Part shown: positions 13,413 through 50,404 of the stretch, piece after piece | Numbering within the stretch: position 1 is the first letter of the stretch | How the letters are laid out: each line of letters opens with the position of its first letter | Assembly: GCF_034344865.1 (NCBI RefSeq) | Contig: NZ_CP133774.1 | Location: forward strand, 4,464,001 to 4,528,000 | DNA from: Pseudomonas sp. 10S4 | Lineage (GTDB): Bacteria; Pseudomonadota; Gammaproteobacteria; Pseudomonadales; Pseudomonadaceae | Length of the DNA stretch: 64,000 nt | Direction of reading: 5' to 3' | Translations under genes and position numbers: made by a program | Notes under the pieces: model-generated | Databases searched by the model: none | What the model was told of the DNA's origin: nothing | The model's input: only the letters and a program-made list of their open reading frames with translations

Positions 13413-13553
13413 TAGGCGCTTCTATTTGATGTTGGGCCTTTTAAAAGTTAGTTAGGCTTAGTTTGCTTTTAATTAGTAGGGGCTGTCGGTTAGATGATAG
13501 TGTGTTGAGGGTGTGCCCCGTATTATCAATAGGTTTGGATGAAATCGTTGTAT

Positions 13554-17678: not shown

Positions 17679-18557
17679 TTGCAGTGTCCTTTGCTTCCAG
17701 CGCTAGCTGGCGGTAATCATCCAATGCTTCGATGCGTAATTCGGGGGCCAGGCTTCCATTTTCAGGGGCCTGGCTCAGCCAGTCCTGATAAGGGCTGTCG
17801 GGGCGTGTGGCGAAGTCTCGACCCCAATCAACACATGTTTCCACCCATGTTACCAGTCCTCTCTCGCTGACCAGTCCCCAGGCGCTGCCGCTGTCCAGGA
17901 CGTGCTCCAACCAGCGCTCGGTTTGATCGCTGTTGAGCAGTGAAAAGGTTTGCGGGTCGCGGGTGTTCAGCCAAGCGTACAGTCGCTCTTTGAACTGCCA
18001 TCGGTAAGCAAGTTCAAGGGCGCTGATTTGATTTTCGCCGAGCAAGGCGAAATTCTTGTCGCGAACGTCTGTTGAGTGAGGGCGTGAAAACTGAGTAATC
18101 GGTGCGTCGCCGGTGGACTGCCAAGTGTGTATTGGTGTCTTGACCCAAAGAGTTTCTATGGGGGCCAGGACCTGGCAAAGCTGCTCTGGCCCGTAACTCG
18201 TTAACCAGTAATGCGTGACCAGCGGATCTGCAAACCTTAGTAGGCCTGCGTTGCCATTAAGGTCGGGCGGACAGATGAAGTGGCGCAGGTGTTCAGCCAC
18301 GGTGCTGAGTGAGGCGCGACTGAACAAGGGACAGGAGTCGGATTGGACCAGTTGGTTTTGCTGCCACTCGCTGACTAGGGGGAGGAGCTTGGTAGCTTGA
18401 CCAATATCGGCCCCAAATCATGCAACTCTTTCCACCGCGTCCCAATGTACAGCGGCTCAATTTCCAGCGGTTCACCACGCTGGTACAGATGGGCAATTGC
18501 ATCAGGTCGCAATACACCGTCAATCAACAAGAAATTGGCTTGGGAAACATTGCTCAC
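17671..18557 (-). pseudogene. DUF4123 T6SS adaptor (Tap/TEC type), one frameshift
   Basis: GTG 18557 overlaps the vgrG stop (GTGA). The frame stops at TAG within 'PSSSP*'. Restoring one base in the G-run 18378-18382 continues it as '[19 protein letters not shown]' and then the 17671-18327 frame, giving about 295 residues. The N-terminus '[14 protein letters not shown]' and '[19 protein letters not shown]' are typical of DUF4123. These chaperones bind an effector and deliver it to the VgrG tip. The position between vgrG and a VasX-like effector fits exactly. Confidence 0.85.
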
Positions 18558-20608
18558 TTGGCGTTTTCCTTAGCGGCTAGCTCCTTGGCCGCGCGCTCAC
18601 AGATTTCACAGCGTGGCGTTCCGCGCATCAACGCCTGCCGCTGCGCCGGTACCAACAACTGCCCAGCCTTATCCGTATCCGCCTGCTTCAACGGCCCCGG
18701 CAACAAAGGTGCTGCGCCTGTGCCATTCCCCGGACTACCCCCGGAGTTCATATTGATCACCGGCCCGCTCAAGGTCACGCCCCCGGCATCGATCTTGATA
18801 AAGCTGCCGCCGCCCTTGAGGGTCAGTTCACTACCGGCTTCCAGTACCACTTTCAGGCCGCTGCTCAGGTGAATTTCCTGACCCGCTTCAATGAATTGCC
18901 CGGTGCCCACCTTGATGTGTTGGTTAACGCCCACGGTAAGGTGGTCGTTGGCACGGGTTTCGACTTTGCGGTCGGCGTAGACGGTGTGGTGTTCTTCGGC
19001 TTTGAATTCGCTGTAGCTGTTTTGCTCGACGGTGTCGTGGCGTTCGTTGCCGACCCGAATCTTCTGGTCGTGCTCGACGTTTTCGTCCCAGTCGCGCTGG
19101 GCGTGCAGGAAGATTTGTTCCTGGCCCTTTTTGTCTTCGATGCGCAGTTCGTTGTAGCCGCCGCCACCCTTGGAGCTCAGGGTTTTGAAAGTGCTGCGGG
19201 TTTTGTTCGCCGGCAGGTCGTAGGGGACGACGTTTTCCTTGTGGTACAGGCAGCCGCTGATCAGCGGTTGGTCGGGGTCGCCTTCAAGGAAGCTGACCAG
19301 CACTTCCATGCCAATGCGCGGGATGGCGATGCCGCCGTAGTGGGCACCGGCCCAGGCGGAGGAGACGCGCAGCCAGCAGCTGGTCTTGTCGTCGGCCTGG
19401 CCTTCGCGGTCCCAGTGGAACTGCACTTTGACGCGGCCGTATTGGTCGCAGTGGATCTCTTCACCTTTGGGGCCGGTGACTACGGCGCTTTGGCTGCCGA
19501 GGATCCGTGGTTTGGGGTGGTTCAGTGGCGGCCGATTCGGCACGTCCCACGGGGTGGCCTGGAAACGGTTGCGATAGCCTTGATGGAAGTCGTCTTTCAA
19601 CGCGGTGGTGTTGCTGGTCACCGACTCTTCCAGCACTTGCGGCTGTTTGCCTTCGTGGAGAATTTCGGTGAGCAGCCACAGGTCGTTCCATTTGGCTTTC
19701 GGGTGTTCGGTCAGGGCCAGGAAGTGGCCGCTGACCAGGATCGGCTGATCGCTTCGGCCTTCGGCCAACTGGAAGTCGCTGCGGTGACGTTCGAGGGCAC
19801 GTTTGGCCAAGTGTTTGCCGCGCTCGCGGTCGATGAAACGACCGGGATAGTCGTAGTCTTCGAGGTCAGGCAGGGCGTCGCCACGGTTTTCCGCTTCGAG
19901 GGTCAGGCGCGGTTTTTCGAAGTCGTAGTCGCGGCGGGTGGTGCGGCTGGTGCGGGTTTCCAGGCGCAGGTCGAAGCGCTTGATCACCGGGTTAGTCGCG
20001 ACCATGCCGGAGTCTTGCTGGTAGGCCACTGGCGCGAGTTTCGGGAACACCGTCTGGTCATCGCCGAACACCAGTTTGTGGGCCGTGGCGCTGTGCTGGA
20101 AGTGGTAGTGAATACCTTCTTCCTCGCACAGGCGCTGGATGAACTGCAGGTCCGATTCATCGTATTGAACGCAGTAGATGCGCTCGGGATAAATCGCCCC
20201 GACTTTGAATTCGTAGGCGTTGCTTTGAATGCCGTGCTCTTCGAGGACCATGCCGACGATTTTCGGTACGGTGAGGTTCTGGAAGATGCGTTGGTTGATG
20301 CGGTGCGCCAGGTAGGACAGTTGCGGACGCAGGGTCACCGCGTAGCGGGTCAGGCGTTTGCCGGAATCACCCTGGGCGGCGCGATAGATCTGGCCATGAA
20401 TGCCGCTGCCGTCAGGCGAGAGCTGCAAAAAGGCCGGTTTGTGCAGCAGCGTTTCGAGGTCCAGGGACGGCTGTTCACTGACCAGATCCACCTCAAACAC
20501 AAAAGGCTGGCTGATGGCTTCCCGACCTTGCAGGGCAAGAACCTGGAGATCGTTATCCAGACCTTCGATAGTCAGGGCAAAGTGAGTCTGATTGGCCGGC
20601 GCGAACAT
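18554..20608 (-). CDS. vgrG: T6SS spike protein VgrG/TssI
   Basis: The 684-residue protein has the gp27-like base (residues 1 to about 370, including '[22 protein letters not shown]'), the gp5 OB-fold ('[19 protein letters not shown]' near 395) and the conserved '[20 protein letters not shown]' segment. The gp5 beta-helix repeats and a DUF2345-like region follow, then a short Cys-containing tail (CEIC) near 670. It forms the puncturing tip on the Hcp tube. Its stop overlaps the adaptor gene. The tail after the needle may be where the adaptor-effector complex docks. The frame is intact. Confidence 0.95.
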
Positions 20609-20740
20609 CCCTTGTTCCTTGTGCAGTGCTTACTGCGTTCGTCGACACCCGAAAACCAGGTCAACGGACGCGAAATTCTGGGGGAGCGTAAACAACATCG
20701 ACCAGCAGAGCTGGCCGATGCGTGAAGCGGTCAGCCGCGA

Positions 20741-21256
20741 TTAAGCGACTGGCTGACGCCAGTCATCGGAACCCGAAGTACCGGATACTTCGTGGGTCCA
20801 GGTGATTTTGCGGTAGGTGAATTGCACTTCTTCCAGGTGCGTGAAGTGGGAGTTCGACGGATCCTGGCAGTTGTGCATTTTGTTGTTGATGGCGACGATG
20901 ATCGCGTCTTCCAGTTTGGTGGTGTAGTAGTGCTCTTGGGTCCCTTGGGCCGAAGTGCGGTACCACTGGATAACGATTTCGCTCATGCGCTCGCCGGAGG
21001 TCAGAGCCGCTTGCAGCAGTGGCGAAGCCTTGTCGTAGACCTTGGTGATCACAACTGGCTTGTGAACGCGCTGACCGGTTGGTTGGCCGGATTGCGGGTC
21101 ACGCGGGATGATCACGTCGTGGCTGAAAGCCTGAACCATGACTTGGTCTTCGTGACCTTCCTGGTAGGTGTTGCCAACCGAGTCGGCGGTGAAGGCGCCG
21201 GCAGTGATCAGACCTTGTTTTTCGCCAGTAACGGACATGTACGCTGGTGTAGCCAT
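20741..21256 (-). CDS. hcp: T6SS tube protein Hcp/TssD
   Basis: ATG 21256 is preceded by AAGGAG. The 171-residue product starts MATPAYMSVTGEKQG and has the Hcp features 'VMVQAFSHDVIIPRDPQSG' and 'ITKVYDKASPLLQAAL', with a C-terminal 'FTYRKITWTHE'. Hcp hexamers stack into the secreted tube and can carry small effectors. It heads the cassette 132 bases before vgrG. No core T6SS structural genes are in the window, so the main apparatus must be elsewhere. Confidence 0.95.
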   Translation of the reverse strand: MATPAYMSVTGEKQGLITAGAFTADSVGNTYQEGHEDQVMVQAFSHDVIIPRDPQSGQPTGQRVHKPVVITKVYDKASPLLQAALTSGERMSEIVIQWYRTSAQGTQEHYYTTKLEDAIIVAINNKMHNCQDPSNSHFTHLEEVQFTYRKITWTHEVSGTSGSDDWRQPVA

Positions 21257-21424
21257 GGATGTGCTCCTTGCTAAAAATTTAGGGTGCCCGGGAGGCGAAA
21301 TCGCCCGGTGGGTGCCTGACTGTTATCAAGGTTCGTGCCAGAAATGTTGAGGGCCAAGTAAACCGGGGGATGGCCGAGGTTTTTCAATTGCTTGAGTGAT
21401 TTTCAAGGGAAAACACCCCACAAA

Positions 21425-33795: not shown

Positions 33796-35036
33796 ATGAC
33801 GTTCAAACTCTCTCGCTCCCCACTGGCCACCAGCCTCGCCCTGACCCTCGCCCTCGGCGCTTTCGCCCCCGCAGCCTTCGCCGAACCCCACAAGCAAGTT
33901 CTTGCCGACTCCGAGCAATACAAGGCTGAAGCCCTGCAGCTGCTGGAAAAACTGGTCAACATCGACTCAGGCTCCGGCTATGAACCTGGCTTGACCCAGG
34001 TCCGCGATATCGCCGTCGACGAGCTGAAAAAACTCGGCTTCAGCATCGAACTGATACCGAACACCCCGGATAAAAGCAGCCATGTGATCGCCACGCTCAA
34101 AGGCACCGGCAAGGCAAAAATCCTGTTGATGGCGCACATGGACACCGTGTTCAAGGAAGGCTCGGCCGCTGAGCGTCCGTTCCACATCAAGGACGGTCGC
34201 GCCTACGGGCCGGGCGTGATGGACGACAAGGGCGGCATCGTCGCCGGGATCTACGCGCTGAAAGTCCTGAAAAATCTCGACTTCAAGGACTATGCCCAGA
34301 TCACTTTCCTGCTGGATGCCAGTGAAGAAACCGGCTCTGAGGTCGCTACCGACCTGATCAAGAAAACCGCCAAGGCCCACGACGTGACCCTCAACCTCGA
34401 ACCGGGCCGCCCGGCCGATGGCCTGGTGGTGTGGCGCAAAGGCAGCGCCACCGCAGTGGTCGAAGTGAAGGGCAAAGCCGCCCACGCTGGCGTCGCGCCG
34501 GAGCTGGGCCGCAACGCCGCGATGGAAGCGGCGCACCAGATTCTGCAACTGGGCAAATTGGGCGACGAAGCGAAAAAACCACCATCAACTTCACCGTGAT
34601 CAAGGCCGGTGACCGCACCAACGTGATCCCGGATCAAGCCACGGCCAAGGCCGATGTGCGCGCGGCGGTGCCGGAAGAGTTCGACCGGATCGAGAAGGAC
34701 CTGGCGCGGGTGTCCCAGGACAAGTTGATTCCGGATACCGAAGTCACCACCACCCTGCAACGCGGCTTGCCGCCTATGCCGCAGACGAAAGAGTCGGATC
34801 GCTTGATGGCCATGGCTCAGGGGATCTACGGCGAAATTGGCCGCAAGTTGACCGAAGAAGGTAGCGGCGGGGCGGCGGACGCGAGCCTCTCCGCGGGTGT
34901 GGGGACGCCGACGCTGGATGGGTTCGGGATCGTCGGCGGCGGTATTCATACGCCGGAGGAATATGCCGAGGTGGAGAGCGTGACGCCACGGATTTACTTG
35001 TTGTCGCGGATGATTATGGAGTTGGCGAAGCGGTAA
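33796..35036 (+). pseudogene. M20-family metallopeptidase, carboxypeptidase G2 type, one frameshift
   Basis: ATG 33796 has AAGGA upstream and starts a signal peptide ending FAPAAFA|EP. Metal and catalytic residues are present: 'LLMAHMDTVF' (His, Asp), 'GPGVMDDKGG' (bridging Asp) and 'LLDASEETGS' (Glu pair). The frame stops after 'GDEAKKPPSTSP'; adding one A to the run 34573-34578 gives 'AKKTTINFTVIKAGDRTNVI' and continues to 35036, for about 413 residues. This is a periplasmic or secreted zinc peptidase that cleaves C-terminal glutamate-like residues in its best known member. The missing A is a typical homopolymer error. Confidence 0.88.
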
Positions 35037-35433: not shown

Positions 35434-36303
35434 TCACTCTTTAACGCGCATAAACTCTTCCGCCCAGCGGATGTAATCCTCTGGCTGCGTATAGGTATGC
35501 GTTAACTCGGTCGCGCTCAAATCCGACGCCTGGGTAAAGATCTGTCGCTGTTCACGCAAGCTGTCGTAAGTCGCCTTGATCGCCGCAAAGTACGCGCCAT
35601 GGCCATCGATGGTGACCCGCACGCCCAATTCCGCCAGGCGTTTATCGTCACGCAGCGCTGGGTTGCCGTAGGTGACCAGCATCAGTGGCACGCTCAGGTG
35701 TTCGGCGATTTTTTCCAGTTGGTCGAAGTCCTGGACGCCGACCATGCAAATCCCGTCGGCCCCGGCGTTTTGATATTGCTGGGTGCGGCTGATGATTTCC
35801 TGGATCGGCAGGATCCCCGCATTGGTGCGGGCGATGATCGCCATTTCCTTGTCGACCCGGGCTTCCAGCGCTGCGCGAATCTTGCCGACGCCTTCAGCGA
35901 CGCCGATCAAATCGGTGGACTTGCGGCCGAATTGGGCCGGCAGCAAGGTGTCTTCGATGGTCAGCGCGGCGATGCCGGCGCGTTCGAGTTCGACGATGGT
36001 GCGCATCACGTTCAGGGCGTTGCCGTAGCCGTGGTCAGCGTCGGCGATGACCGGCAGTTGGGCCACGCGGCCAATACGGGTGGCCTGTTCAGCGAATTCG
36101 CTGAGGGTGATCAGTGCGAAATCCGGGGCGCCCAGTACCTGCAACGATGCGACCGAGCCACCGAGGATCCCGACTTCAAAACCCAGGTCTGCGGCGATAC
36201 GCGCCGACATCGGGTCGAACACCGAAGCGGTGTGGTAGCACGTGTCGGAAGCCAGCAATTGGCGAAAGTTACGGCGCAAATCTTGATGGGAAAGCCTGGA
36301 CAT
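35434..36303 (-). CDS. Isocitrate lyase/PEP mutase superfamily enzyme, oxaloacetate decarboxylase type
   Basis: ATG 36303 ([13 protein letters not shown]) is preferred over upstream in-frame codons. The 289-residue protein has the superfamily pattern: '[18 protein letters not shown]', '[20 protein letters not shown]' with Asp pairs for Mg2+, and '[14 protein letters not shown]' where ICL/PEP mutases have the catalytic loop. It lacks the KKCGH motif of isocitrate lyase. It matches the oxaloacetate decarboxylase subgroup (P. aeruginosa PA4872-like), which yields pyruvate and CO2. It stands alone between REP regions. Confidence 0.9.
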
Positions 36304-36491
36304 ATGAGTTCCACCACTGCATTGGAATGGAAGGGCTTGAGCAAAAGTGTCAACGCCGAAGGAACAAAAGGCTATCACGCTGGCGGGGTCAGGAGGATGA
36401 CGAATTTTTAGACAGGTGAAACGATACCGCTCCTTGTGGCACGGGAGCTTGTGCTAATGCCGGTCACTAAAGAGATGAGCGACGCATGACC

Positions 36492-36623
36492 TGTGGCGAG
36501 GGAGCTTGCTCCCGCTCGGCTGCGCAGCAGTCGTAAATTCAGCAAACGCGGTGTGTCTGAAAAATGGGGTGGCAGGTTTTGGGGCCGCTTCGCAGCCCAG
36601 CGGGAGCAAGCTCCCTCGCCACA
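36492..36623. repeat. REP pair (BIME), 'TGTGGCGAGGGAGCTTGCTC' type
   Basis: Arms at 36492-36513 and 36602-36623 face each other around GGCTGCGCAGCAG / GCCGCTTCGCAGCCC sub-arms. The 36304-36634 gap holds nothing else recognisable. Confidence 0.9.
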
Positions 36624-36634
36624 AAGGCGGGGGA

Positions 36635-37669
36635 TCAGGCCGCCACCGCCTGCTGCGCCTGATTCAACAGCGTCACTGCCCGCACCGAATTCCCCGGTTG
36701 CAGCTGCAGACGCTTGGCAGTGAGGCGGTCGACGATCAGGCTGTTGCCCACCAGCCGCGCCTTGGCGGTGGTGATGCGGCAGTTTTCCATGCGTTGGTTG
36801 TGGATCAGCCACACCGGGGCCTGTTCATCAGGGGTGCCAATGCCCAGCACCAGCGACTGGCTGTCACGCACGGTGCGGATTTTCGAGACCTGCGCTTCAA
36901 TCACCGGTCCGCCATCAAAGATGTCGATGTAGTCCTTGTGGGCAAAACCTTCGGCATTGAGGATCTTCAGCGCCGTCTGCGTGTTCGGGTGAGCCTTGCC
37001 GATCACTGCCTGAGCCTGTTCGGTAAGCAGGCAGGTGTACAGCGGTTGACGGGGCATCAGTTCGGCGATGAACGATTTGTTGCCCAGCCCCGACAGGTGG
37101 TCGGCGTGGCTGAAATCCATCTTGAAAAAGTGCCGGCCCAGACTGTCCCAAAACGGCGAGCAGCCTTGCTCGTCGGCACTGCCGCGCAGTTCGGCGATGA
37201 GCTTGTCGCCAAACAGCTGCGGGAATTCGGCGACGAACAGCAACCGCCCCAGCGACAGCAATCGACCGTTGTTGCCATAGCGCTGATCGGGGCGCAGGAA
37301 CAGCGAGCAGAGTTCCGATTGGCCGGTCATTTCGTTGTTCAGGAACAAGGTCGGAATATGCTTCTGGATACCCAGGTCCGGCGACGAACTGACCGTCAGC
37401 CCGACCCGGTAGTTGTACCAGGGCTCTCGCATGCCGACGGCCCCCGTCAGGGCACTGACCCCGACCACGCGTTGCTCGTCGTCCTCCAGCACGAACAGAT
37501 AATCGGCGTCGGCACGTTCGACCTGTTCGGCGAAGGTCCGCTGGGACCAGCGCACGCGGTGGGCCAGGCGATCTTCGTTCGCCGGCAGGGTGGTGAACCC
37601 GGGGCCTGCCTGTTGCACCAGCGTCAGCAAGGCGGGCAGGTCGGTGATGTGAACCGGGCGGACAATCAT
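36635..37669 (-). CDS. Arginine/ornithine N-succinyltransferase beta-subunit-like (AruG-like)
   Basis: The 344-residue protein aligns by eye with AruG: 'MIVRPVHITDLPALL', 'FTTLPANEDRL', 'REPWYNYRVGLTVSSS', 'SPFWDSLGRHFFKMDFSHAD', 'FIAELMPRQPLY' and 'EGFAHKDYIDIFDGGPVIEA'. AruF/AruG catalyse succinyl-CoA-dependent N-succinylation of arginine or ornithine at the start of the AST pathway. The rest of aruCDBE is absent; the gene ends an unusual operon, so it is probably a paralogue with another substrate. It follows the AruF-like gene by 61 bases. Confidence 0.88.
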   Translation of the reverse strand: MIVRPVHITDLPALLTLVQQAGPGFTTLPANEDRLAHRVRWSQRTFAEQVERADADYLFVLEDDEQRVVGVSALTGAVGMREPWYNYRVGLTVSSSPDLGIQKHIPTLFLNNEMTGQSELCSLFLRPDQRYGNNGRLLSLGRLLFVAEFPQLFGDKLIAELRGSADEQGCSPFWDSLGRHFFKMDFSHADHLSGLGNKSFIAELMPRQPLYTCLLTEQAQAVIGKAHPNTQTALKILNAEGFAHKDYIDIFDGGPVIEAQVSKIRTVRDSQSLVLGIGTPDEQAPVWLIHNQRMENCRITTAKARLVGNSLIVDRLTAKRLQLQPGNSVRAVTLLNQAQQAVAA

Positions 37670-37730
37670 GATGCAGCTCCTTTTGCGCGCGTGCTCGGGC
37701 GCTGTCGTTGGGCACGGGTCCCGGTGATGC

Positions 37731-38747
37731 TCACAGGGCGATCAGCCGGATCGGGCTGCCGTCGGTGACGTTCAGGGCGGCGCACAGGTCGGCGCTCAAG
37801 CCCACCGGTTGTCCGGCGGTGTAGTCCAGTTCGGTGATGATGGCCCGGTAATCCTTGAGCGAATCGTTGCTCACCAGGTAACTGCCACGGGCGTCGATGG
37901 TCTCAACGGGCTGCGCGGTGCCGGTGTGGCTGTGGGCAATAGAGCGAATGTTCGCGGTACGCGCATACAGCGTCGGGCCGCCGTCGAACAGGTCGATGTA
38001 GCTGTTGGTTTCAAAGCCTTCGCGCTCCAGGATGTCGAACGCTTCCTGGCCGTCGGGGTGAATCCGGCCAATGCACTCTTGCGCCGCTTTAGGCAGCATC
38101 GGCACGTAGATCGGGTATTGCGGCATCAGTTCGGCGAGGAAGGTCCGGCTCTCCAGGCCACAGAGTCGCTCGGCCTCGACGTAAGGCAGGTCAAAAAAGT
38201 GTTTGCCCAGGGCATCCCAGAACGGCGACTGGCCCTGATCGTCGCTGTACCCGACGATTTCGGTGATCACCGCCTCTGAAAAACGCGCGGAGTGAGCCGC
38301 GATAAACAGCAGCCGGGCCCGTGACAACAACTCGGAAAACGGCGTGCGCACCAGTGCCGCATCAATGTGAAAGCCGCGCAGCAAGGTGTGGCCGCTGAGG
38401 TCGTGGCACAACGACAGCGCCGGCACGCCGTGCTCGATGTTCAGTTCCCGTGAGGTGCTGGTGAAGTGGCGGTTGCGCAAGCTGTAGAACGGCTCACTGA
38501 AACCGGCGGTGGCAAGGATTTCCGAGCACCCGGTCAGACGTTGGCTGGCCAGGTCTTCGAGGACGAAAAAGTAGTTCTCCGGGCCGTTGCCTTGTACGTC
38601 TTTGTCGAACGAGGCGCAGGAGTCGAGAATTTTCTCGCGCAGGCGTTCGCTATCGTCCGGCAGCGACGTGACGCCCACCAGGCTGTCGCGGGCCAGTTGT
38701 TGCAACTGGGGCAGGTCGGTTAACTCGACTGGGCGTAAGACCAGCAT
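37731..38747 (-). CDS. Arginine/ornithine N-succinyltransferase alpha-subunit-like (AruF-like)
   Basis: The 338-residue product matches AruF: 'MLVLRPVELTDLPQLQQLA', 'GVTSLPDDSERL', 'ENYFFVLED', 'FSEPFYSLRNRHF', 'SPFWDALGKHFFDLPYVEAERLC' pieces and 'FETNSYIDLFDGGPTL'. AruF and AruG are homologous subunits of a heteromeric acyltransferase. The operon places it behind an APC permease and a gamma-glutamyl-ligase-type enzyme, so the natural acceptor may be a modified amino acid or amine rather than arginine. Confidence 0.88.
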   Translation of the reverse strand: MLVLRPVELTDLPQLQQLARDSLVGVTSLPDDSERLREKILDSCASFDKDVQGNGPENYFFVLEDLASQRLTGCSEILATAGFSEPFYSLRNRHFTSTSRELNIEHGVPALSLCHDLSGHTLLRGFHIDAALVRTPFSELLSRARLLFIAAHSARFSEAVITEIVGYSDDQGQSPFWDALGKHFFDLPYVEAERLCGLESRTFLAELMPQYPIYVPMLPKAAQECIGRIHPDGQEAFDILEREGFETNSYIDLFDGGPTLYARTANIRSIAHSHTGTAQPVETIDARGSYLVSNDSLKDYRAIITELDYTAGQPVGLSADLCAALNVTDGSPIRLIAL

Positions 38748-38867
38748 GGATGTACTCCTGTATCAAAGGGTTCGGCGGTTTGCCGTCGAACCTGACTATC
38801 ACTGTCGGTGTCCACGCGTTAAAGCAGCGGTCGCCTGATTTGTTGTCAGACGCCGCCCTTTTTGTTG

Positions 38868-40217
38868 TCAGACGTTGCTCGGGTCCGGCAACGACGTGCT
38901 GGCGCCCAGCTTGTTCAGGAAGAACAAATAGACCAGACCCAGAGCAATCCAGATCAAACCGAGCTTTTGTGCATCGACGCCCATGTTGTACATGATGGCC
39001 GCGACGATGATGAAGCCGACCACCGGGCAGAGCAGGTGACGGATCACCTGGCCGGATTTCTGCCGGCGCCAGTAGTAGTTGATCACGGTCAGGTGCAGCA
39101 GCATGAAGCCACTCAACGCGCCGAAGTTCACCAGGGAGGTGAGGGTGTCCACCGAGTTGATGAACAGGTAGCAAATCACCAGCGACAGCACGGCCACCAG
39201 GTAAATGCTGATGTGCGGCGTGTTGTATTTTGGATGGACCTTGGCCAGCACTTTCGGCAGTTTACCGTCCCGTGCCATGCCGAATATCAGCCGCGATACC
39301 GCCGATTGCGAAGTGATGGCCACCGCCACACCCCAGGACAGGGCCGTGGCCACGGCGGTAAGGGTTGCCAGCCAGCTGCCAGCGGCAATTTCAGCAATTT
39401 CATAAAACGCGGTGTCAGCGGATTTGAAACCCATGCCGGCAGCCAGATCGGTGGCGATCCAGGTCTGCACCACGAAGATCACGCCCATCACCACCAGGGT
39501 AATCAGCGCAGCCTTGCCAACACTGCGGCCCGGGTCCTCTTTGATCTCTTCGGCCAGGGTGGAAATCGCATCGAAGCCAAGGAACGACAGTACTGCAATC
39601 GACACCGCTTGCATCAGCAGCGCGAAGTTGAACGTTTCGGGGTTGTACAGCGGCGCCAAGGTCAACTCACCGTGACCGCCGCCGTTGTGCAGGGCATTCC
39701 AGGCGTAGAACAGGAAGATCCCCAGCACCACCAGTTGCGCCAGCAGAAAGACGATGTTCATCCGTGCGGTGAAGGTGATGCCCCGCAGGTTTACAAACGT
39801 CGCACTGACCAGGAACGCCAGGATGAAACCGACTTTCGGAATATCCGGGTACAGGTGATTCAGCGCCATGGCCGCGTACACGTACAGCAGCGGCGGGATC
39901 AGCAGGTAATCAAGCAGCATCAACCAACCGGCAATAAAGCCGACATGTTGATTCAAGCCGCGTTGTGCGTAGGAATACACCGAGCCGGCAATCGGAAAAG
40001 CCTTGGCCATGCTGCCGTAGCTGAGGGCGGTAAACAGCATCGCCACCATGCCGATAATGTAGGCCAGCGGCACCATCCCGGGCGCCTCGGCGTTGACGTA
40101 GCCATAAACACCGAACGGGGCGATGGGGACCATGAAGATCATCCCGTACACCACCAGATCCGTCAGTGTCAGGCTACGTTTCAACTCCTGCTTGTAGCCG
40201 AATTCTTCTATTTCCAT
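38868..40217 (-). CDS. APC-family amino acid/amine permease (PuuP-like)
   Basis: The 449-residue protein has about twelve membrane helices. It begins 'LKRSLTLTDLVVYGMIFMVPIAPFG' pieces (first helix of APC carriers) and has 'AFPIAGSVYSYAQRGLNQHVGF', 'LSFLGFDAISTLAEEIKEDPG' and 'SQSAVSRLIFGMARDGKLP'. The pattern resembles E. coli PuuP more than the LysP/AroP group. It probably imports the substrate for the operon. It sits between the amidohydrolase-like gene and the AruF-like gene. Confidence 0.88.
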   Translation of the reverse strand: MEIEEFGYKQELKRSLTLTDLVVYGMIFMVPIAPFGVYGYVNAEAPGMVPLAYIIGMVAMLFTALSYGSMAKAFPIAGSVYSYAQRGLNQHVGFIAGWLMLLDYLLIPPLLYVYAAMALNHLYPDIPKVGFILAFLVSATFVNLRGITFTARMNIVFLLAQLVVLGIFLFYAWNALHNGGGHGELTLAPLYNPETFNFALLMQAVSIAVLSFLGFDAISTLAEEIKEDPGRSVGKAALITLVVMGVIFVVQTWIATDLAAGMGFKSADTAFYEIAEIAAGSWLATLTAVATALSWGVAVAITSQSAVSRLIFGMARDGKLPKVLAKVHPKYNTPHISIYLVAVLSLVICYLFINSVDTLTSLVNFGALSGFMLLHLTVINYYWRRQKSGQVIRHLLCPVVGFIIVAAIMYNMGVDAQKLGLIWIALGLVYLFFLNKLGASTSLPDPSNV

Positions 40218-40294
40218 GAAGCGTCTCTCCTGGTCATTCCATCGGGCAACTTTTAGTTTTTATTCCGCTACAGCGCACAACGTTTACTTTTTTC

Positions 40295-41056
40295 CTACAG
40301 CAAGGGGGCGAGGTATCCGCTCCAGCGTTCAATTGCCTCGGGCGTGCGCAGCAGATCGTTGCGCACCTCGATCAACACCGATTCCAGCTCGCGAGCATCG
40401 CCGTGCACCGGCACGGTCATGTCCCCCAGAGGGTCTATCTTGTACGGCTGATTGCCGGCCACTTTCTTCGAATGCCGGCTCAACCCGTCGATCACCCGTT
40501 GGGCGTAATTCCGGGCCCCGCCAAACAGCACGCCGGCTTCCAGCAACCGGGGCTGACCGTAATAAATCGGGGTGAAACTGTGAATCCCCACCACTCGAAC
40601 TGCTCGCCCTTGCGCCACGCGCTCGTCGATCAGGCTTTGCAAGCGGGTGTGAAACGGCTTGAACAACGTTTCCCGGCGGTACTCCCGGGTGGCTTCACTC
40701 AGTTGCTGGTTGCCCGGCACCTGATAAATCTCGCTCTGACCCGGAATGCTGTCCGGGGCATGGCGTGGGCGATTGAGGTCAATCAACAGCCGTGAGTAGT
40801 TGGCCGCCAGCAGCGTCACGCCGAGTGTTTCGGACAAGCGCTCAGCCAGCGCCAGGGCACCGATGTCCCAGGCGATGTGCTCACGGGCGGCTTCAAAGCT
40901 CAAACCCAGATCATTCAACGCCGGCGGAATAAAACGGCTGGCGTGTTCGCACACCAGAATCAGCGGGTGCTCGGAGGCTTCCCGGATCAAGGTGTACGGG
41001 GGCTTGGTGTAGAGCCCAAGTTCAGCAGGTTCAGTACAGACGGGCATAGTGCTCAC
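40295..41056 (-). CDS. N-formylglutamate amidohydrolase family protein
   Basis: The 253-residue protein has the family features 'LILVCEHASRFIPP', with a metal-binding Glu-His, 'HIAWDIGALALAERLSETL', 'NYSRLLIDLNRP' and 'VRVVGIHSFTPIYYG'. Members are HutG-like zinc hydrolases removing an N-formyl group from formylglutamate; relatives act on other N-acyl compounds. It starts at GTG 41056 or ATG 41047, overlapping the end of the glutamine-synthetase-like gene, so it is translationally coupled. No hut genes are nearby, so a substrate other than formylglutamate is likely. Confidence 0.85.
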   Translation of the reverse strand: MSTMPVCTEPAELGLYTKPPYTLIREASEHPLILVCEHASRFIPPALNDLGLSFEAAREHIAWDIGALALAERLSETLGVTLLAANYSRLLIDLNRPRHAPDSIPGQSEIYQVPGNQQLSEATREYRRETLFKPFHTRLQSLIDERVAQGRAVRVVGIHSFTPIYYGQPRLLEAGVLFGGARNYAQRVIDGLSRHSKKVAGNQPYKIDPLGDMTVPVHGDARELESVLIEVRNDLLRTPEAIERWSGYLAPLL

Positions 41057-42362
41057 AAAGGTCGGCGGGCGAGAGCTGTTCCGTCAGCGTCAGTTCCTCG
41101 GTTTTCAGGGCGAAATAAGAGTCGAGCAGTGCCTTGGGCAACGCTTCGATCAGCGCCTCACTGTTGCGCAGGCAGTCCAGGGCCTGGGGCAGAGAGGCGG
41201 GTAGGGCAACAATGCCCCGGGCCTGGCGTTGTTCTTCATTCAGGGCATCGGGGATTTCATCAGTGATTGCATTCAGTGCCAGGCGTTGTTCGATGCCCAG
41301 GCGTCCGGCAATCAGCAGTGCGGCCATGGCCAGGTGCGGCGAGGCGGTGGCGTCCATGGCACGAAATTCGAGGTTGTACTGCGCGGCTACGGATTTACTG
41401 CCCAGGGTTACCGTCGGGCAGATCCGCAGCGCCGCTTCGCGGTTGCGCTGGCCGAGGCAGGCATAGGAAGCGCTCCAGTGATGGGGCAGCAAGCGCTTGT
41501 AGGACACCGGCGTCGGCGCGGTTATGGCGCAGAGAGCCGGCAAGTAATGCAGGATCCCGGCGGCCCAGTGCTGGCCGAGGGTCGACAGGCCATTGGTGGT
41601 GCCGGCGTCGTACAGCAGCGGTTGCCCGGCGAGGTCTTGCAGGCTGATGTGCAAATGCACACCGTTGCACATTGCATGTTCGGTGGTCTTCGGCGCGAAG
41701 CTCAGGTCCACGCCCATTTGCCGAGCGACTTCCCGGGTGATTTCGCGCACGTTCACCGCACGGTCGGCGGCGGCGACACCGAGCGCCGGGCGGCAGGTGA
41801 TTTCGTATTGATGCTTGCCGTATTCCGGCAGGAACATCTCCGGCTCCACGCCACCCGCGCGCAAAGCGCTGAGCAACCAGCCGCCGAATTCGGCACCCTG
41901 GCGCTGGGCTTCAAGGGAGAACGCCCGACAATCGGCATCGCCGCTGTCCAGGTTGAATTCGTGTTCGAACGCGGCGTTGACCTGCACCCCCAACTCGGCC
42001 CTATAACGTTCCACTTCGTTGCGCAGCAGGGTGCGCGGGCATGTGGCCCACGGCCGGCCATCGGTTTCGCAGAGGTCGCCATGGATGAAGTCCAGAGGCG
42101 GGGCATTGGCGTCCGGGCCGTTGCTGACGGTCACCCGGCTGCCCATGTCCGGAATCAATCGCAAGTCACCGTAAGCGCCCCACGGACTGGCCGAGGCGAT
42201 GACGTCTTGCGGGGTCAGTGCGCTGTTGGCGGGCACCCAGCCGATACCGGCGGCTTGATAGTGCTCCAGCTCATCGGTGGGAAAGGAGCGACCGCGGGTC
42301 ACGCCGATCAGGTCGGTGGTGACAATCGTGGTCATCGGGACGGGCAGCAGGCGCGCGCTCAT
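41031..42362 (-). CDS. Glutamine synthetase family protein (gamma-glutamyl ligase type)
   Basis: ATG 42362 overlaps the preceding stop (ATGA). The 443-residue protein retains GS catalytic segments: 'AAFEHEFNL' (metal Glu), 'CNGVHLHISL' (His loop), 'WSASYACLGQRNREAALRIC' (ATP/Glu-binding Arg) and 'NLEFRAMDATASPHLAMAAL'. It lacks the adenylylation-site Tyr region of GlnA type I. PuuA and other catabolic ligases of this family join glutamate to amines. With a PuuP-like permease in the operon, gamma-glutamylation of an imported amine is a reasonable guess. Confidence 0.88.
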   Translation of the reverse strand: MSARLLPVPMTTIVTTDLIGVTRGRSFPTDELEHYQAAGIGWVPANSALTPQDVIASASPWGAYGDLRLIPDMGSRVTVSNGPDANAPPLDFIHGDLCETDGRPWATCPRTLLRNEVERYRAELGVQVNAAFEHEFNLDSGDADCRAFSLEAQRQGAEFGGWLLSALRAGGVEPEMFLPEYGKHQYEITCRPALGVAAADRAVNVREITREVARQMGVDLSFAPKTTEHAMCNGVHLHISLQDLAGQPLLYDAGTTNGLSTLGQHWAAGILHYLPALCAITAPTPVSYKRLLPHHWSASYACLGQRNREAALRICPTVTLGSKSVAAQYNLEFRAMDATASPHLAMAALLIAGRLGIEQRLALNAITDEIPDALNEEQRQARGIVALPASLPQALDCLRNSEALIEALPKALLDSYFALKTEELTLTEQLSPADLCEHYARLY

Positions 42363-43003
42363 GGCTGCATCTCCTGCAGACGGGCGAGCACGGTTTGCGT
42401 GTCCGTAATCCAGCAATAACCTTTGATCGCGTTGAGGCAGGCCTGATGCCGTTCCGGGGTGTAAGTGGCGCAGGCGTCTTCCACCAGCGTCACCAGGTAG
42501 CCACGGTCGGCGGCGTCACGCACCGCCATGTCGACGCACTGGTCGGTGACGATGCCGGCGATGACCAGATGCCGCGCCCCGAGGTTGCGCAACACGTAGT
42601 CGATGTTGGTGGAGTTGAAGACCCCCGAGGAGCTTTTCGGCAGCACGACTTCGTTTTCTTCCGGGGTCAGGTCCTCGATGATTCGCGCCTGCGGGCATCC
42701 TTTGGGCAGGTGCATGTCCGAGAGTTTGTGGTCCAGGGAACGGTCGCGGCCATCGGCGGTGAGGCTTTCGATCAGGGTATGTACTACGTTCTGCCGGGCG
42801 CTGCGAAAGGCGCTGAGCAACCGCCGCTGATTGGGCACTACCTGCATGTGAGTGCGAGTCAGGAAATATTCGGCGTCGGGGTCGTTGAGGTGCGGGTCGA
42901 ACTGCGGTTCGAGCCAGGCCCGCTGCATGTCGACCAGCAACAGCGCGGTGTGGTCAGTGACAAAAGGCAGGTCGCGCGGCGAGCGGTGGGGGAGCGTAAA
43001 CAT
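42359..43003 (-). CDS. Isochorismatase-family cysteine hydrolase
   Basis: The 214-residue product carries the full triad: Asp in 'ALLLVDMQRAW' (near 25), Lys in 'VVLPKSSSGVF' (near 123) and Cys in 'IVTDQCVDMAVRDAADRG' (near 157). The family includes isochorismatases, nicotinamidases and carbamoyl/ureido hydrolases such as RutB. Its start is two bases after the rpiR stop and its end overlaps the GS-like gene. An amidase or carbamoylase role in the operon is likely; isochorismate chemistry has no support here. Confidence 0.9.
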   Translation of the reverse strand: MFTLPHRSPRDLPFVTDHTALLLVDMQRAWLEPQFDPHLNDPDAEYFLTRTHMQVVPNQRRLLSAFRSARQNVVHTLIESLTADGRDRSLDHKLSDMHLPKGCPQARIIEDLTPEENEVVLPKSSSGVFNSTNIDYVLRNLGARHLVIAGIVTDQCVDMAVRDAADRGYLVTLVEDACATYTPERHQACLNAIKGYCWITDTQTVLARLQEMQP

Positions 43004-43005
43004 CC

Positions 43006-43860
43006 TTATTTTTCCTCCAGTAGATGGGTGTCGAATTCAGAACGCAGGGCATCGATGCCTTCCAGGCGATCGGCCAGATCGGGGCTGCGCAAGGTCAGGC
43101 AAGCAATCAGTGCTTCAACCTGCGCCAGCGCCGGGACCAGGGTGTCGAACGCCGAGACCGACTCCACCGGCGAGCTGATGATCAAATCGGCCATTTCCCG
43201 CAACGGCGAGGTATAGATGTCGGTGAACAGCACTACCCGCGCATAGCGATTTTTCGCGGCACTGGCCACCCGCAAGGCCTGGGACTGGTAGCGGCGATAA
43301 TCGAACACCAGCACCACGTCCTGGCGCTGTACGTCGAACAGTCGGTCCGGCAACTGGGCGTTGTCTTCCAGGGCAAAACAGCCGGGGCGCAGCAGGCGCA
43401 AATGGTTGAGCAAATAGTGGGCGAGGAAACTGCTGAAACGCCCGCCGAAGCAATGCACTTGATGGCGAGCGTCGAGCAACCATTCCACCAGAATCCGTAC
43501 ATCTTCAGGTTGCGTCAGGGCCTGGGTTTCCACCATGGAGCGATGGGTTTCCGCCAGATAATGGCTCCACGGATCATCTTTTTGCAGGTGGGCGCGGGGT
43601 TGCAACAGGGTGCTTGGGGAGCGCAAGCGGTGGTCCATGTCGCTGAGCAACGCGTCCTGGAACTCGGCGTAACCGCTAAAGCCAAGTTTTTTGACCAGTC
43701 GCACAATGGTCGGATCGCTGACACCGGCGTGCTCGGCCAATCGCGACATCGGGCCCAGTCCGTTACGCGGGTACTGGTCCAGCAAGGCGCGGATGACTTT
43801 GCGTTCCGAAGGCGTAAGGTCCAGGCCGGGATCGGTGATCAGGTCTCTAAGAGGGGGCAT
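43006..43860 (-). CDS. MurR/RpiR-family transcriptional regulator
   Basis: The 284-residue protein has an N-terminal HTH_6 domain ('LTPSERKVIRALLDQYP', 'VSDPTIVRLVKKLGFSGYAEF') and a C-terminal SIS domain ('VHCFGGRFSSFLAHYLLNHL', 'LVFDYRRYQSQALRVASAAK'). It is the first gene of the seven-gene operon and presumably controls it. The inverted repeat at 43901-43948, 40 bases upstream of its start, is the best operator candidate. Confidence 0.9.
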   Translation of the reverse strand: MPPLRDLITDPGLDLTPSERKVIRALLDQYPRNGLGPMSRLAEHAGVSDPTIVRLVKKLGFSGYAEFQDALLSDMDHRLRSPSTLLQPRAHLQKDDPWSHYLAETHRSMVETQALTQPEDVRILVEWLLDARHQVHCFGGRFSSFLAHYLLNHLRLLRPGCFALEDNAQLPDRLFDVQRQDVVLVFDYRRYQSQALRVASAAKNRYARVVLFTDIYTSPLREMADLIISSPVESVSAFDTLVPALAQVEALIACLTLRSPDLADRLEGIDALRSEFDTHLLEEK

Positions 43861-43900
43861 CCGGGCTCCTGCTGGATGGGTGTGTCGGTTTCATTTCACA

Positions 43901-43948
43901 ATTCACTAAAACAGTATTTATGTAACTCACACTACATGTCTAGTGAAT
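43901..43948. promoter_or_regulatory. Candidate RpiR operator: separated 8-bp inverted repeat
   Basis: ATTCACTA (43901-43908) and TAGTGAAT (43941-43948) are perfect inverted copies, 32 bases apart. The AT-rich stretch between them would suit the operon promoter. The remaining 43949-44202 is the divergent leader before the histidine phosphatase gene; I see only the hairpin at 44001-44033 in it. Confidence 0.5.
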
Positions 43949-44000
43949 TTTTGCACGCCAGTGTCAGGCCCCAAAACGGGGCGAAACCCCCGTGCCATGG

Positions 44001-44033
44001 GTCCTACGTGGATGTCGACAGGGCTTGTAGGAC
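44001..44033. repeat. Hairpin GTCCTAC...GTAGGAC upstream of the cob genes
   Basis: GTCCTAC (44001-44007) and GTAGGAC (44027-44033) form a 7-bp stem, extendable by GGG/CCC. A similar CTGTAGG...CCTACAG stem occurs at 48086-48122. I see no cobalamin riboswitch features around it. Confidence 0.4.
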
Positions 44034-44202
44034 ATTGCCCATAGCGGTGTCGGAGATTACCGTTTTTCATGATTGAAATAGGCTGTCTGCCCGAGGCAAT
44101 TGAGCCAAATGAAACGCCCTCAAAGGCCCGTCTTACAGCACAATTGGCCGATTGTTTGCGGCGTTTTGCCGTTTCACATATTCAACAACAGGGTGATTTT
44201 CC

Positions 44203-44775
44203 GTGCAGGTGACCCGTTTGACCTTGATTTGCCACGCGCGAACCGTCGCACAAAAACTGGCGCGTTTTCCTACAGATGAGCCAGTGGAAATGGTTTGGCA
44301 ATCGGCGAAGTGTTCCCGTCGCGGATCTTCCAAGGTCGCGCCGCGCCTGCTGTGTGGTCCCGAAGCCCGAACCCGCCAGACCGCTGAACTGTTTGGCAGT
44401 GATGCGCAAGTGGTCGAGGCCTTGAGGGACTGCGATTTTGGCCGCTGGCAAGGTGTGCGAATCACCGATCTGCAAAAAACCGAACCCGATACGCTCGTGG
44501 CATGGCTGGAAGACCCGCATTCTGCCCCCCACGGCGGCGAATCGGTGGTGCAACTCGGTGAGCGGGTGGCGGCGTGGCTGGCAACGTTGGAGGCGACACC
44601 GGGCCACATCGTCGCCATCACCCACCCTTACGTGGTTCGCGCCGCGCTGGCGCATGTGCTGCAGAGCACCGCATTCAACCTGATCGACGTTGAGCCGTTG
44701 TCGACCATCGAGTTGCGGTTCACCGGGCGCTGGCGGCTACGCTTGATGAGCACTGAGGCTGAAGGAGCGTTTTGA
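44203..44775 (+). CDS. Histidine phosphatase family protein with altered RHG motif
   Basis: Starting at GTG 44203, the 190-residue protein has the phosphoglycerate-mutase-like fold: 'LTLICHARTVAQ' near residue 10, where RHGxT is expected, 'GPEARTRQTAELFG' (second Arg), 'DFGRWQGVRITDL' and 'GHIVAITHPYVVRAAL' (second His). The first catalytic Arg of RHG is Cys here, while the His remains, so activity may differ from typical CobC-like phosphatases. Its stop overlaps the cobF start (TGATG), so the two are translationally coupled and a role in cobalamin synthesis is suggested. Confidence 0.85.
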   Translation: MQVTRLTLICHARTVAQKLARFPTDEPVEMVWQSAKCSRRGSSKVAPRLLCGPEARTRQTAELFGSDAQVVEALRDCDFGRWQGVRITDLQKTEPDTLVAWLEDPHSAPHGGESVVQLGERVAAWLATLEATPGHIVAITHPYVVRAALAHVLQSTAFNLIDVEPLSTIELRFTGRWRLRLMSTEAEGAF

Positions 44776-48309: not shown

Positions 48310-49092
48310 ATGAAGAAGCTAGTGATGTTCGGTGCCCTGGCACTGTCGATGTTGTCCCTGACCGCCGTGGCCGAAGACGCCAAGCCGATCCGCATCGGTA
48401 TCGAAGCCGGTTACCCGCCATTCTCGATGAAAACCCCTGACGGCAAACTCACCGGTTTCGACGTGGACATCGGCGACGCGCTGTGCGAGCAGATGAAAGT
48501 GAAGTGCGTGTGGGTCGAGCAAGAGTTCGACGGCCTGATCCCGGCCCTGAAAGTGAAGAAAATCGACGCGATCCTGTCGTCCATGACCATCACTGACGAC
48601 CGCAAGAAAAACGTCGACTTCACCATCAAGTACTATCACACCCCGGCGCGCTTCGTGATGAAGGCAGGCACCGACGTGAAGGACCCGCTGACCGAACTCA
48701 AGGGCAAGAAAGTCGGTGTGCTGCGTGCCAGTACCCACGACCGCTTCGCCACTGAAGTGCTGCAACCGGCCGGGATTGTCCTGGTGCGTTACGGCTCCCA
48801 GCAGGAAGCCAACCTGGACATGGTCTCCGGCCGCCTCGACGCGATGCTGGCTGATTCGGTCAACCTGGACGACGGTTTCCTGAAAACCGACGCCGGTAAA
48901 GGTTTCGCGTTCGTCGGCCCGACCTACGAAGACGCCAAGTACTTCGGTGGCGGCGCCGGTATCGCTGTGCGCAAGGGTGACAAGGAGCTGGCTGACAAAT
49001 TCAGCACCGCTATCACCGAGATCCGTGCCAACGGCAAGTACAAGCAAGTGCAGGACAAGTACTTCAACTTTGATGTGTACGGCGGCGAGTAA
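48310..49092 (+). CDS. ABC transporter periplasmic binding protein for basic amino acids (HisJ/ArtJ/AotJ-like)
   Basis: ATG 48310 follows CAGGAG. The 260-residue protein has a signal peptide ending TAVA|ED and the family-3 SBP signature: '[19 protein letters not shown]', '[22 protein letters not shown]' pieces with the Cys pair near 58-65, '[20 protein letters not shown]' and '[11 protein letters not shown]'. It probably binds lysine/arginine/ornithine/histidine. No permease or ATPase follows; an efficient terminator comes directly after, so it is an orphan receptor sharing another transporter. Confidence 0.9.
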
Positions 49093-49103
49093 CCCAGCCG
49101 TTT

Positions 49104-49141
49104 AAAAAAGTGGCCACCGTTGACGCGGTGGCCACTTTTTT
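49104..49141 (+). terminator. Intrinsic terminator of the binding-protein gene
   Basis: A 16-bp perfect stem (AAAAAAGTGGCCACCG at 49104-49119 and its complement at 49126-49141) with a six-base loop ends in TTTTTT. It begins 12 bases after the stop codon. Confidence 0.9.
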
Positions 49142-49168
49142 ATGCCAATCTTCCTCAGAAGAGGAACC

Positions 49169-49258
49169 TGTGGGAGCGGGCTTGCTCGCGAAAGCGGTGT
49201 GTCAGGCAACATCAATACTGACTGACACGACGCCTTCGCGAGCAAGCCCGCTCCCACA
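49169..49258. repeat. REP pair (BIME), 'TGTGGGAGCGGGCTTGCTCG' type
   Basis: Facing arms at 49169-49193 and 49235-49258, located between the terminator and the next gene. Confidence 0.9.
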
Positions 49259-49291
49259 GTGGATCTCATCGTTCTGACTATCGGAGTTCCC

Positions 49292-50404
49292 ATGCAACGC
49301 ATCGACCATCCACTGCCCTGGAGTCATCTGGGCACCGAGCGCAGCCTCAGCGTGTTTCGTTATGGCGCGGGCGCCCGCAAGGTTTACATCCAGGCCAGCC
49401 TGCACGCCGACGAACTGCCGGGCATGCGCACGGCCTGGGAGCTGAAGAAGCGCCTGGCCGAACTCGAAGCCCAGGGCCAGTTGCAGGGCGTAATCGAATT
49501 GGTGCCGGTGGCCAACCCGATCGGCCTCGATCAGCATTTGCAAGGCGCCCATATGGGCCGTTTCGAACTGGGCAGCGGCAAGAATTTCAACCGTGCGTTC
49601 GTCGAATTGAGTGCTCCGGTGGCCGCGTTGATCGGTGCTCAGTTGGGCGACGATGCCGAAGCCAACATCGCGCTGATTCGCCAGACCATGGGCCAGGTGC
49701 TCGACGACTTGCCGGCACCGGCGTCGCAACTGGAAGCCATGCACCGCTTGCTGCTGCGCCATGCTTGCGATGCCGATATCACTCTGGATTTGCATTGCGA
49801 CTTCGATGCAGCGATTCACATCTACGCCTTGCCGCAACACTGGCCGCAGTGGCAATCCCTGGCGGCGCGCTTGAAGGCGGGCGTGGCATTGTTGTGCGAA
49901 GACTCGGGCGGCAGCTCGTTCGATGAATCCTGTTCGACGCCATGGCTGCGTTTGGCACGGGCCTTCCCTGAGGCGGCGATCCCACCCGCCAACCTGGCGA
50001 CGACGCTGGAACTGGGCAGCATGGGCGACACCCGGGTCGATCAGGCCCAGGCCAATTGCGAGGCGATTCTGGGGTTCCTCGCCGAGCACGACTTCATCAA
50101 AGGCACCTGGCCTGCAGCCCCGAGCGAGTGCTGCGAAGGTATGCCGTTCGCCGGCACCGAGTACCTGTTCGCCCCGCACCACGGCGTGGTCAGCTTCCTG
50201 CGCGAGGCCGGTGAATGGGTGGAGCAGGGCGATGCGCTGTTTGAAGTGGTCGACCCGTTGAACGACCGGGTAACGACCGTGAAGGCCGGGACCAGTGGCG
50301 TGCTGTTTGCGATTGATCGGGGGCGCTACACCGAGCCGGGGACGTGGCAGGCGAAAGTTGCCGGGCGTGAGCCGTTTCGGGTTGGGAAGTTGACTAACGA
50401 CTGA
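49292..50404 (+). CDS. Succinylglutamate desuccinylase/aspartoacylase family protein
   Basis: ATG 49292 follows CGGAGTTCCC. The 370-residue zinc hydrolase has 'VYIQASLHADELPGMRTAW' (the HxxE metal ligands near 38-41), 'VPVANPIGLDQ', 'NFNRAF', and 'DITLDLHCDFDAAIHIY' (third ligand His). A C-terminal beta domain carries a biotinyl-like 'GVVSFLREAGEWVEQGDALF'. The long C-terminus matches the AGR/'M14-like' deacylase subgroup rather than AstE. Proximity to a basic amino-acid receptor suggests hydrolysis of an N-acyl amino acid; the substrate is uncertain. Confidence 0.88.
   Translation: MQRIDHPLPWSHLGTERSLSVFRYGAGARKVYIQASLHADELPGMRTAWELKKRLAELEAQGQLQGVIELVPVANPIGLDQHLQGAHMGRFELGSGKNFNRAFVELSAPVAALIGAQLGDDAEANIALIRQTMGQVLDDLPAPASQLEAMHRLLLRHACDADITLDLHCDFDAAIHIYALPQHWPQWQSLAARLKAGVALLCEDSGGSSFDESCSTPWLRLARAFPEAAIPPANLATTLELGSMGDTRVDQAQANCEAILGFLAEHDFIKGTWPAAPSECCEGMPFAGTEYLFAPHHGVVSFLREAGEWVEQGDALFEVVDPLNDRVTTVKAGTSGVLFAIDRGRYTEPGTWQAKVAGREPFRVGKLTND

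Follow-up and report, generated by a model that had tools for sequence, protein, structure and literature searches.

The locus described here raises the question of whether seven neighbouring genes, which bring together gamma-glutamyl ligation, hydrolysis and N-succinyl transfer, serve a single pathway. The genes lie in a 64,000-nucleotide stretch of Pseudomonas sp. 10S4 (contig NZ_CP133774.1, positions 4,464,001 to 4,528,000; hereafter the window), whose genome of 7.27 Mb is a single contig. All seven open reading frames (ORFs) are on the minus strand at 36635..43860, as a first-pass annotation made from the sequence had placed them, and their domain matches are far over the Pfam cut-offs: HTH_6 with SIS, isochorismatase, glutamine synthetase (GS), PF05013, amino-acid permease and two AstA domains. 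That annotation had proposed one operon and one pathway. We find a core module of five genes followed by a semi-independent N-succinyltransferase-like pair, which is not clearly one seven-gene transcript and is not ordinary arginine degradation.

Gene order of the core within and outside Pseudomonas

The positions and strand given by the first-pass annotation were confirmed, and the order of the genes is conserved in the genus. A close relative of the GS-like ligase (E at most 1e-120) was found in 39 of 149 genus genomes, the window's own counted. In all 38 genus loci fetched besides the window the order regulator, isochorismatase-family hydrolase, GS-like ligase, PF05013 hydrolase, permease is kept, and AruF and AruG directly follow the permease in 35 of them. 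Among the named loci, which are the best 80 of 105 and all from Pseudomonas, the core is present in order in 80/80 and the pair comes next in 79; at the exception, L171, the contig ends just past AruF. The two sets overlap, with 18 of the 38 fetched loci sharing exact sequence with a named one. Pseudomonas sp. TH15 has a ligase that shares 100% identity with the one in the window, and P. fluorescens FW300-N2E3 also carries the locus (L162).

Two bp separate the regulator from the isochorismatase-family gene, as read from the sequence. The latter overlaps the ligase gene by 4 nt if translation of the ligase begins with the ATG at 42362 instead of the listed TTG at 42416, which probably lies too far upstream, and the ligase gene overlaps the PF05013 gene by 17-26 nt. 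The several stop/start overlaps proposed earlier are thus limited to the first four genes, while the permease, AruF and AruG genes each stand behind a gap, of 77, 120 and 61 bp, respectively.

In a class-wide draw of 369 genomes, a ligase match at E at most 1e-70 was obtained in two, the window's own and one at 38%. When 398 genomes of the phylum were searched with the PF05013 hydrolase, 101 had a match (E at most 1e-25). Eighteen loci were fetched, 17 from these hydrolase matches plus the 38% ligase locus (L217), a draw that favours hydrolase-bearing genomes and gives no frequencies. The first four genes stand in order in six of the 18 (L206-L210, L221). Two of these (L206, L207), from another genus of the family, hold all five core genes in the window's order; in L208, from another family of the order, the contig ends inside the permease gene; and L209, L210 and L221, from another class of the phylum, presumably Alphaproteobacteria, show no permease match. 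L217 has the order ligase, PF05013 hydrolase, isochorismatase-family hydrolase. In L211-L215 and L220 a weak GS match follows the PF05013 gene on the same strand, in all but L215 with a divergent RpiR-type gene, and in five loci (L216, L218, L219, L222, L223) the PF05013 gene is alone. The five-gene core is an old module, and its order in 38/38 genus loci together with the relatives outside the genus rules out chance neighbours.

Table 1. Features of the locus, with positions in the window.
Feature	Position	Strand	Basis
Putative regulator promoter TAGACA-18-AATACT with palindrome, candidate operator	43913..43942	-	promoter-like match, conservation
Regulator, RpiR/MurR type (HTH_6 + SIS)	43006..43860	-	PF01418, PF01380; first module gene in 38/38 fetched genus loci
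Isochorismatase-family cysteine hydrolase	42359..43003	-	PF00857
GS-like gamma-glutamyl-amine ligase, PA5508/PauA7 type	41031..42362	-	PF00120 + PF16952; start taken as ATG 42362
PF05013 hydrolase, probably gamma-glutamyl-amide hydrolase	40295..41056	-	PF05013, 139 bits
APC-family amino-acid/amine permease	38868..40217	-	PF13520/PF00324
AruF leader, conserved element and covarying hairpin before ribosome-binding site	38745..38837	-	alignment
AruF-like subunit, diverged N-succinyltransferase pair	37731..38747	-	PF04958, 379 bits
AruG-like subunit, same diverged pair	36635..37669	-	PF04958, 416 bits
PEP-mutase/isocitrate-lyase-family neighbour, not assigned to module	35434..36378	-	PF13714

Functions of the core genes

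The GS-like ligase is identical to chain A of structure 4HPP (PA5508, also PauA7) in 290 of 439 residues (66%). At 11 of 11 checked positions, taken from passages of PMC5403932, the two proteins carry the same residue: the metal and glutamate residues of GS are kept, and the ammonium site bears the PauA7 replacements (among the positions are G40, A147 and W296), as in glutamyl-organic-amine synthetases of the PauA7/GoaS type. Together with the permease, this homology makes the uptake and gamma-glutamylation of an amine, already suggested by the first-pass annotation, a well-supported prediction. According to passages of PMC6478659, PA5508 favours bulky amines, catecholamines for example, above linear amines, whereas a passage of PMC11335346 lists spermidine and putrescine among its substrates.

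The PF05013 hydrolase had been described as N-formylglutamate-amidohydrolase- or deformylase-like. It scores 35.6 bits against TIGR02017 (HutG), where the cut-off is 278.75, and the genome has its own HutG elsewhere (C1:2223649, 393.6 bits, over that cut-off); therefore it is better read as a gamma-glutamyl-amide hydrolase, which from its sequence it probably is. With its relatives in L211-L214, which lie in clusters of ethanolamine type (content checked by Pfam for L211 only), it shares 41-44% identity, against 22-24% with three HutG proteins, and it is thus nearer to the hydrolases of clusters with GS and an iron-type alcohol dehydrogenase than to HutG. Score, separate HutG and low identity rule out that it is HutG. 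A PF05013 protein is the proposed gamma-glutamylglycine amidohydrolase of the ethanolamine route in passages of PMC9397018, PMC6529630 and PMC10132767, and PF05013 'deformylases' beside GS-like ligases may be recast as probable gamma-glutamyl hydrolases. Among proteins of known structure, those closest in sequence to the isochorismatase-family protein are cysteine, biuret and RutB hydrolases.

The statement that no described pathway has such a gene set did not hold for the core. By content, the first five genes are of the same five kinds as PA5506-PA5510, no P. aeruginosa record having been compared directly. We take the order to be that of PA5506-PA5510 in P. aeruginosa; five such genes lie in this order on one strand in the window, in the 38 genus loci and in L206 and L207. 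No AruF or AruG was found in the 19.5 kb fetched around the module in L206 or L207, a difference from the window. A related arrangement is that of the ethanolamine clusters (Streptomyces coelicolor SCO1610-1615, Chromohalobacter salexigens and the marine MED193_10021-10056), which, as far as described in passages of PMC9397018, PMC10132767 and PMC6529630, share a GS-like ligase and a PF05013 hydrolase; the marine cluster also has a transporter and an RpiR gene, the latter numbered next to the PF05013 gene. The described passages mention no isochorismatase-type hydrolase for these clusters, which carry alcohol and aldehyde dehydrogenases, and, in the marine case, a TRAP transporter, whereas no such dehydrogenase was seen here among the Pfam-scanned locus genes or, by eye, among the ORFs of 34-47 kb. 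The ligases of the ethanolamine-like clusters L211-L214 are only 27-30% identical to that of the window.

The neighbours of the core in other bacteria also bear on its role. In L209 and L221 genes for a DAO-type FAD oxidase and a class III aminotransferase lie next to the core (Pfam), and both are present in L210 at 92-93% identity; these would supply an oxidation step. L217 has genes for an aminotransferase, for an aldehyde dehydrogenase and for EutB nearby (Pfam). L211 encodes a GS-like protein and an alcohol dehydrogenase of the iron type (Pfam), besides TRAP-like and aldehyde-dehydrogenase-like ORFs named by eye only, and its gene set resembles the described ethanolamine route. Taken together, the gene sets of the relatives, the ligase and the PF05013 hydrolase point to amine catabolism via a glutamylated intermediate. 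This would also be a likelier job for the operon that is called glutamine synthesis in passages of a plasmid-cost study (PMC6246594).

Upstream of the regulator gene, a promoter scan returned TAGACA-18-AATACT. Because the scan gave two matches and shuffles led us to expect 1.9, the promoter call leans on the conservation of this site in the alignment of upstream regions. Between the hexamers lies the palindrome ATGTA-N8-TACAT (starting at 43920), which is present in 38 of 43 regulator upstreams (missing in L050, L052, L056, L084 and L085), occurs once in the window, and is absent from all 43 permease and all 49 AruF upstreams. We infer that the regulator may repress its own gene through this candidate operator.

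The AruF/AruG-like pair and its leader

The two subunits have the family and order of AruF and AruG in the arginine succinyltransferase (AST) pathway (aruCFGDBE) and form a diverged clade. The AruF-like protein is 58% identical to the genome's own AST AruF and scores 423.1 bits against TIGR03245, below the equivalog cut-off of 458.8; the AruG-like protein is 63-65% identical to AST AruG of the genomes compared and, with 446.1 bits, is over the TIGR03244 cut-off of 391. As the first-pass annotation had noted, aruC, aruD, aruB and aruE are absent beside the pair (locus ORFs, Pfam). The genome's AST operon lies elsewhere, at about C1 64-72 kb, with aruF and aruG (PF04958) and with aruD, aruB, astE and part of a frame-broken aruC (NCBIfam). 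The missing genes and this operon rule out an ordinary AST operon in the window, and conserved synteny revealed no tie to ordinary arginine degradation. An arginine annotation may mislead for this N-succinyltransferase-like pair, which is conserved in Pseudomonas. No paper on the gene combination or on the AruF/AruG paralog pair was found in the literature searched, which leaves out most subscription journals.

In the tree all copies of the pair group together, separate from 21 AST pairs and on longer branches, which makes the pair a fast-evolving sister of AruF/AruG. Its median dN/dS is 0.127-0.133 in loci without the core and 0.124-0.128 in loci with it, versus 0.044-0.048 for the AST copies; purifying selection thus acts on it whether or not the core is present. 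Of 74 positions that are invariant in a small comparison set (42 genus AST proteins and two other AstA), 64 are retained by at least 95% of the AruF paralogs and 60 by the same share of the AruG paralogs, and an invariant glutamate (Glu44/Glu43) is replaced in all 50 AruF and 49 AruG paralogs. The dN/dS values and the lost invariant residues would fit an altered specificity, short of proof.

Before AruF, the leader motif TGG..CGACAGTGAT.GTC is present in 49/49 loci, including nine without the core. It is accompanied by a hairpin of eight pairs, seven of which show changes on both sides, with 92.8% of the cells paired; none of 500 shuffles reached this value, and slid versions gave 23-45%. No Rfam match was obtained in the leader (cmscan of 36300-44300, E up to 1), and a simple scan found no sigma-70-like promoter in it and no terminator between the permease gene and AruF. 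The conservation of the leader in loci without the core argues for AruF/AruG as a unit of their own, likely with a separate transcript from a putative promoter at this leader.

The closest competitor to a changed specificity is that the pair is a spare arginine/ornithine succinyltransferase, adding AST gene dosage beside an amine module by chance, which we regard as a serious though minority possibility. The subunits match the families of that enzyme, AruG even over the equivalog cut-off; an orphan binding protein of lysine/arginine/ornithine type is encoded nearby (48310-49092); and the citrulline loci that join CtlX to AruG (L008, L097; passages of PMC9007349), another use of AstA paralogs in Pseudomonas outside AST, show that such paralogs can feed ornithine use. 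In these loci CtlX adjoins AruG, and no core genes were found in the fetched stretches of L097-L101. A spare enzyme is harder to reconcile with a median dN/dS of 0.12-0.13 against 0.04-0.05 in the AST copies, and with the invariant positions that fall below 95% (10/74 in AruF, 14/74 in AruG). The leader bears on both sides. Taking TGTCGC to be an ArgR half-site, we found no exact copy in 49 AruF leaders versus three copies before the genome's aruC; a near-match, TGTCGG or TGTCGA, is present in 49/49 leaders, so that arginine control is possible.

Linkage of the two parts and the proposed pathway

To follow the pair without the core, all 17 genus genomes that lack the ligase and have at least three AstA matches were taken, plus five ligase-bearing ones. 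Nine of the 17 carry a pair of the window's type (AruF 73-88%, AruG 79-88%); G006 holds fragments of the pair and G079 a 76-residue AruG fragment (62%) of unclear type. In these nine the pair lies before the PEP-mutase-type gene, with the usual upstream neighbours visible in eight (the L091 stretch starts too near the pair to show them). The 15-19 kb fetched around the pair yielded no core gene, and none of the nine genomes has a ligase at E at most 1e-120 genome-wide, the other core genes having been sought only at the site. On the pair tree these loci are scattered among core-bearing ones, which points to repeated loss of the core as the probable history. On the core tree, the loci with the pair form a group in which only L083 is without it; L084, L085, L206, L207, L209, L210 and L221 also have no pair, and L208 is undeterminable. 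Most simply, the pair was gained once and lost at least once, although the node that unites all loci with the pair has a support of 0.51, and by these trees the pair probably joined the module within the genus. A strict seven-gene operon is possible but not accepted: of the one operon and one pathway first proposed, the conserved order stands, whereas the later arrival of the pair, its own leader and its presence without the core in nine genomes leave the rest unproven.

We favour, with somewhat better than even confidence, a two-part locus for amine and amino-acid catabolism. We would infer the following for it, from the substrates and the order of steps to any flux between the parts. The permease would import an amine, which the ligase would join to the gamma-carboxyl of glutamate, using ATP. 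The masked amine would be oxidised by unlinked oxidases and dehydrogenases, and the PF05013 hydrolase would then free the glutamate. The isochorismatase-family enzyme may cleave an amide or carbamoyl bond at a step that is not placed. The SIS-domain regulator would repress its own promoter until a pathway ligand binds. The AruF/AruG-like pair, a gain made inside the genus whose expression would depend at least in part on its own leader, would most likely transfer succinyl to the alpha-amino group of a basic amino acid, which may replace or supplement arginine and ornithine as substrate, and AST enzymes encoded elsewhere would complete the breakdown of the product.

Several observations weigh against this two-part locus. 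No oxidase or dehydrogenase is present in it (Pfam-scanned genes; ORFs of 34-47 kb by eye), so that the core alone would be a futile cycle of ligase and hydrolase, and the isochorismatase-family enzyme is unexplained within the core pathway. According to passages of PMC6478659, PA5508 alone among seven ligases shows no induction by polyamines, with which the polyamine substrates listed in PMC11335346 contrast. For the pair, an AruG over the AstA equivalog cut-off is compatible with plain arginine succinylation, and the set of AST proteins compared is small. With neither a leader promoter nor a terminator seen, read-through from the core is possible. Finally, the pair without the core in nine genomes and three genus core loci without the pair may mean that the parts are unrelated.

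It is also conceivable, though we think it doubtful, that the pair is functionally coupled to the core in one pathway, with gamma-glutamyl placed on the amine and N-succinyl on the resulting amino acid or gamma-glutamyl amide. Coupling would account for the position of AruFG directly after the permease (35/38 genus and 79/80 named loci, in overlapping sets) with no terminator-like site between them, and for the seven genes that stand together without any usual neighbour in L157 and, as far as a 10.7-kb contig shows, in L160/L074, which are one record. Of the 149 genomes, 36 have core and pair, three the core only, nine the pair only and 101 neither, a table that assumes that genomes with two AstA hold the AST pair only and in which relatedness inflates the association. 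The linkage is mostly vertical inheritance at one site, however, and co-occurrence is not independent evidence for coupling; moreover, AruF has its separate conserved leader, the regulator palindrome stands before it in 0/49 loci, and in nine genomes the pair is retained although the core is missing from the site. A double-masking pathway, in which the pair would N-succinylate the alpha-amino group of a gamma-glutamyl-amine or derived amino acid and the PF05013 hydrolase or AstE would split N-succinyl-glutamate-type products, appears improbable; if true, it would link gamma-glutamylation to N-succinylation in a new way and add a new substrate to the AstA family.

A biosynthetic or detoxifying use, in which the ligase would attach a tag to bulky or aromatic amines and the hydrolases would recover it, is unlikely as well: the preference of PA5508 for bulky amines and stress-like settings in partial accounts (over-expression of PA5506-PA5509 with every plasmid tested except one, PMC6246594; a change of PA5507 and PA5509 by log2 3.21 and 2.99 in an nrdR mutant without oxygen, PMC4409342) would suit it, but the oxidase, aminotransferase, EutB or aldehyde dehydrogenase beside the relatives, and the entry of PauA7 and PA5510 in a gene table of a Crc-regulon paper (PMC6235884), fit catabolism.

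Around the seven genes, the PEP-mutase-type neighbour often lies just downstream; it was not found in the fetched stretch at L155-L157, L162, L163, L179 and L180. A long inverted repeat resembling repetitive extragenic palindromes lies just downstream of the AruG-like gene (36498-36618), and over it fell the only cmscan match, to an animal microRNA model (32.9 bits, cut-off 142), which was read as chance. Upstream of the locus (48310-50402), the orphan binding protein gene and an M14-like, deacylase-type ORF (by eye) are often conserved with it. At L081 a split AruF match and a late-starting AruG match indicate that the pair may be damaged there. In the window, the frame of an M20 carboxypeptidase-like gene (33796-35036) is broken, while the close relative L102 has an open frame of 467 codons; aruC (L007) and the third AruG copy (L008) likewise look broken, and base-level assembly errors are possible. 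At L008:7689-9870, CtlX (411 bits) lies beside an AruG-like gene that is divided between two frames, an arrangement of the citrulline type that passages of PMC9007349 describe. At L097:7904-12220, a single ORF of 748 aa fuses CtlX to an AruC-type transaminase, and an AruF/AruG pair of its own comes next; this may be a compact route for citrulline or ornithine. Further away, the region 12000-21300 of the window is a type VI secretion island with unnamed cargo, where the GC content falls to 0.43-0.50 at 12-18 kb beside VgrG (18554-20608) and Hcp (20741-21256).

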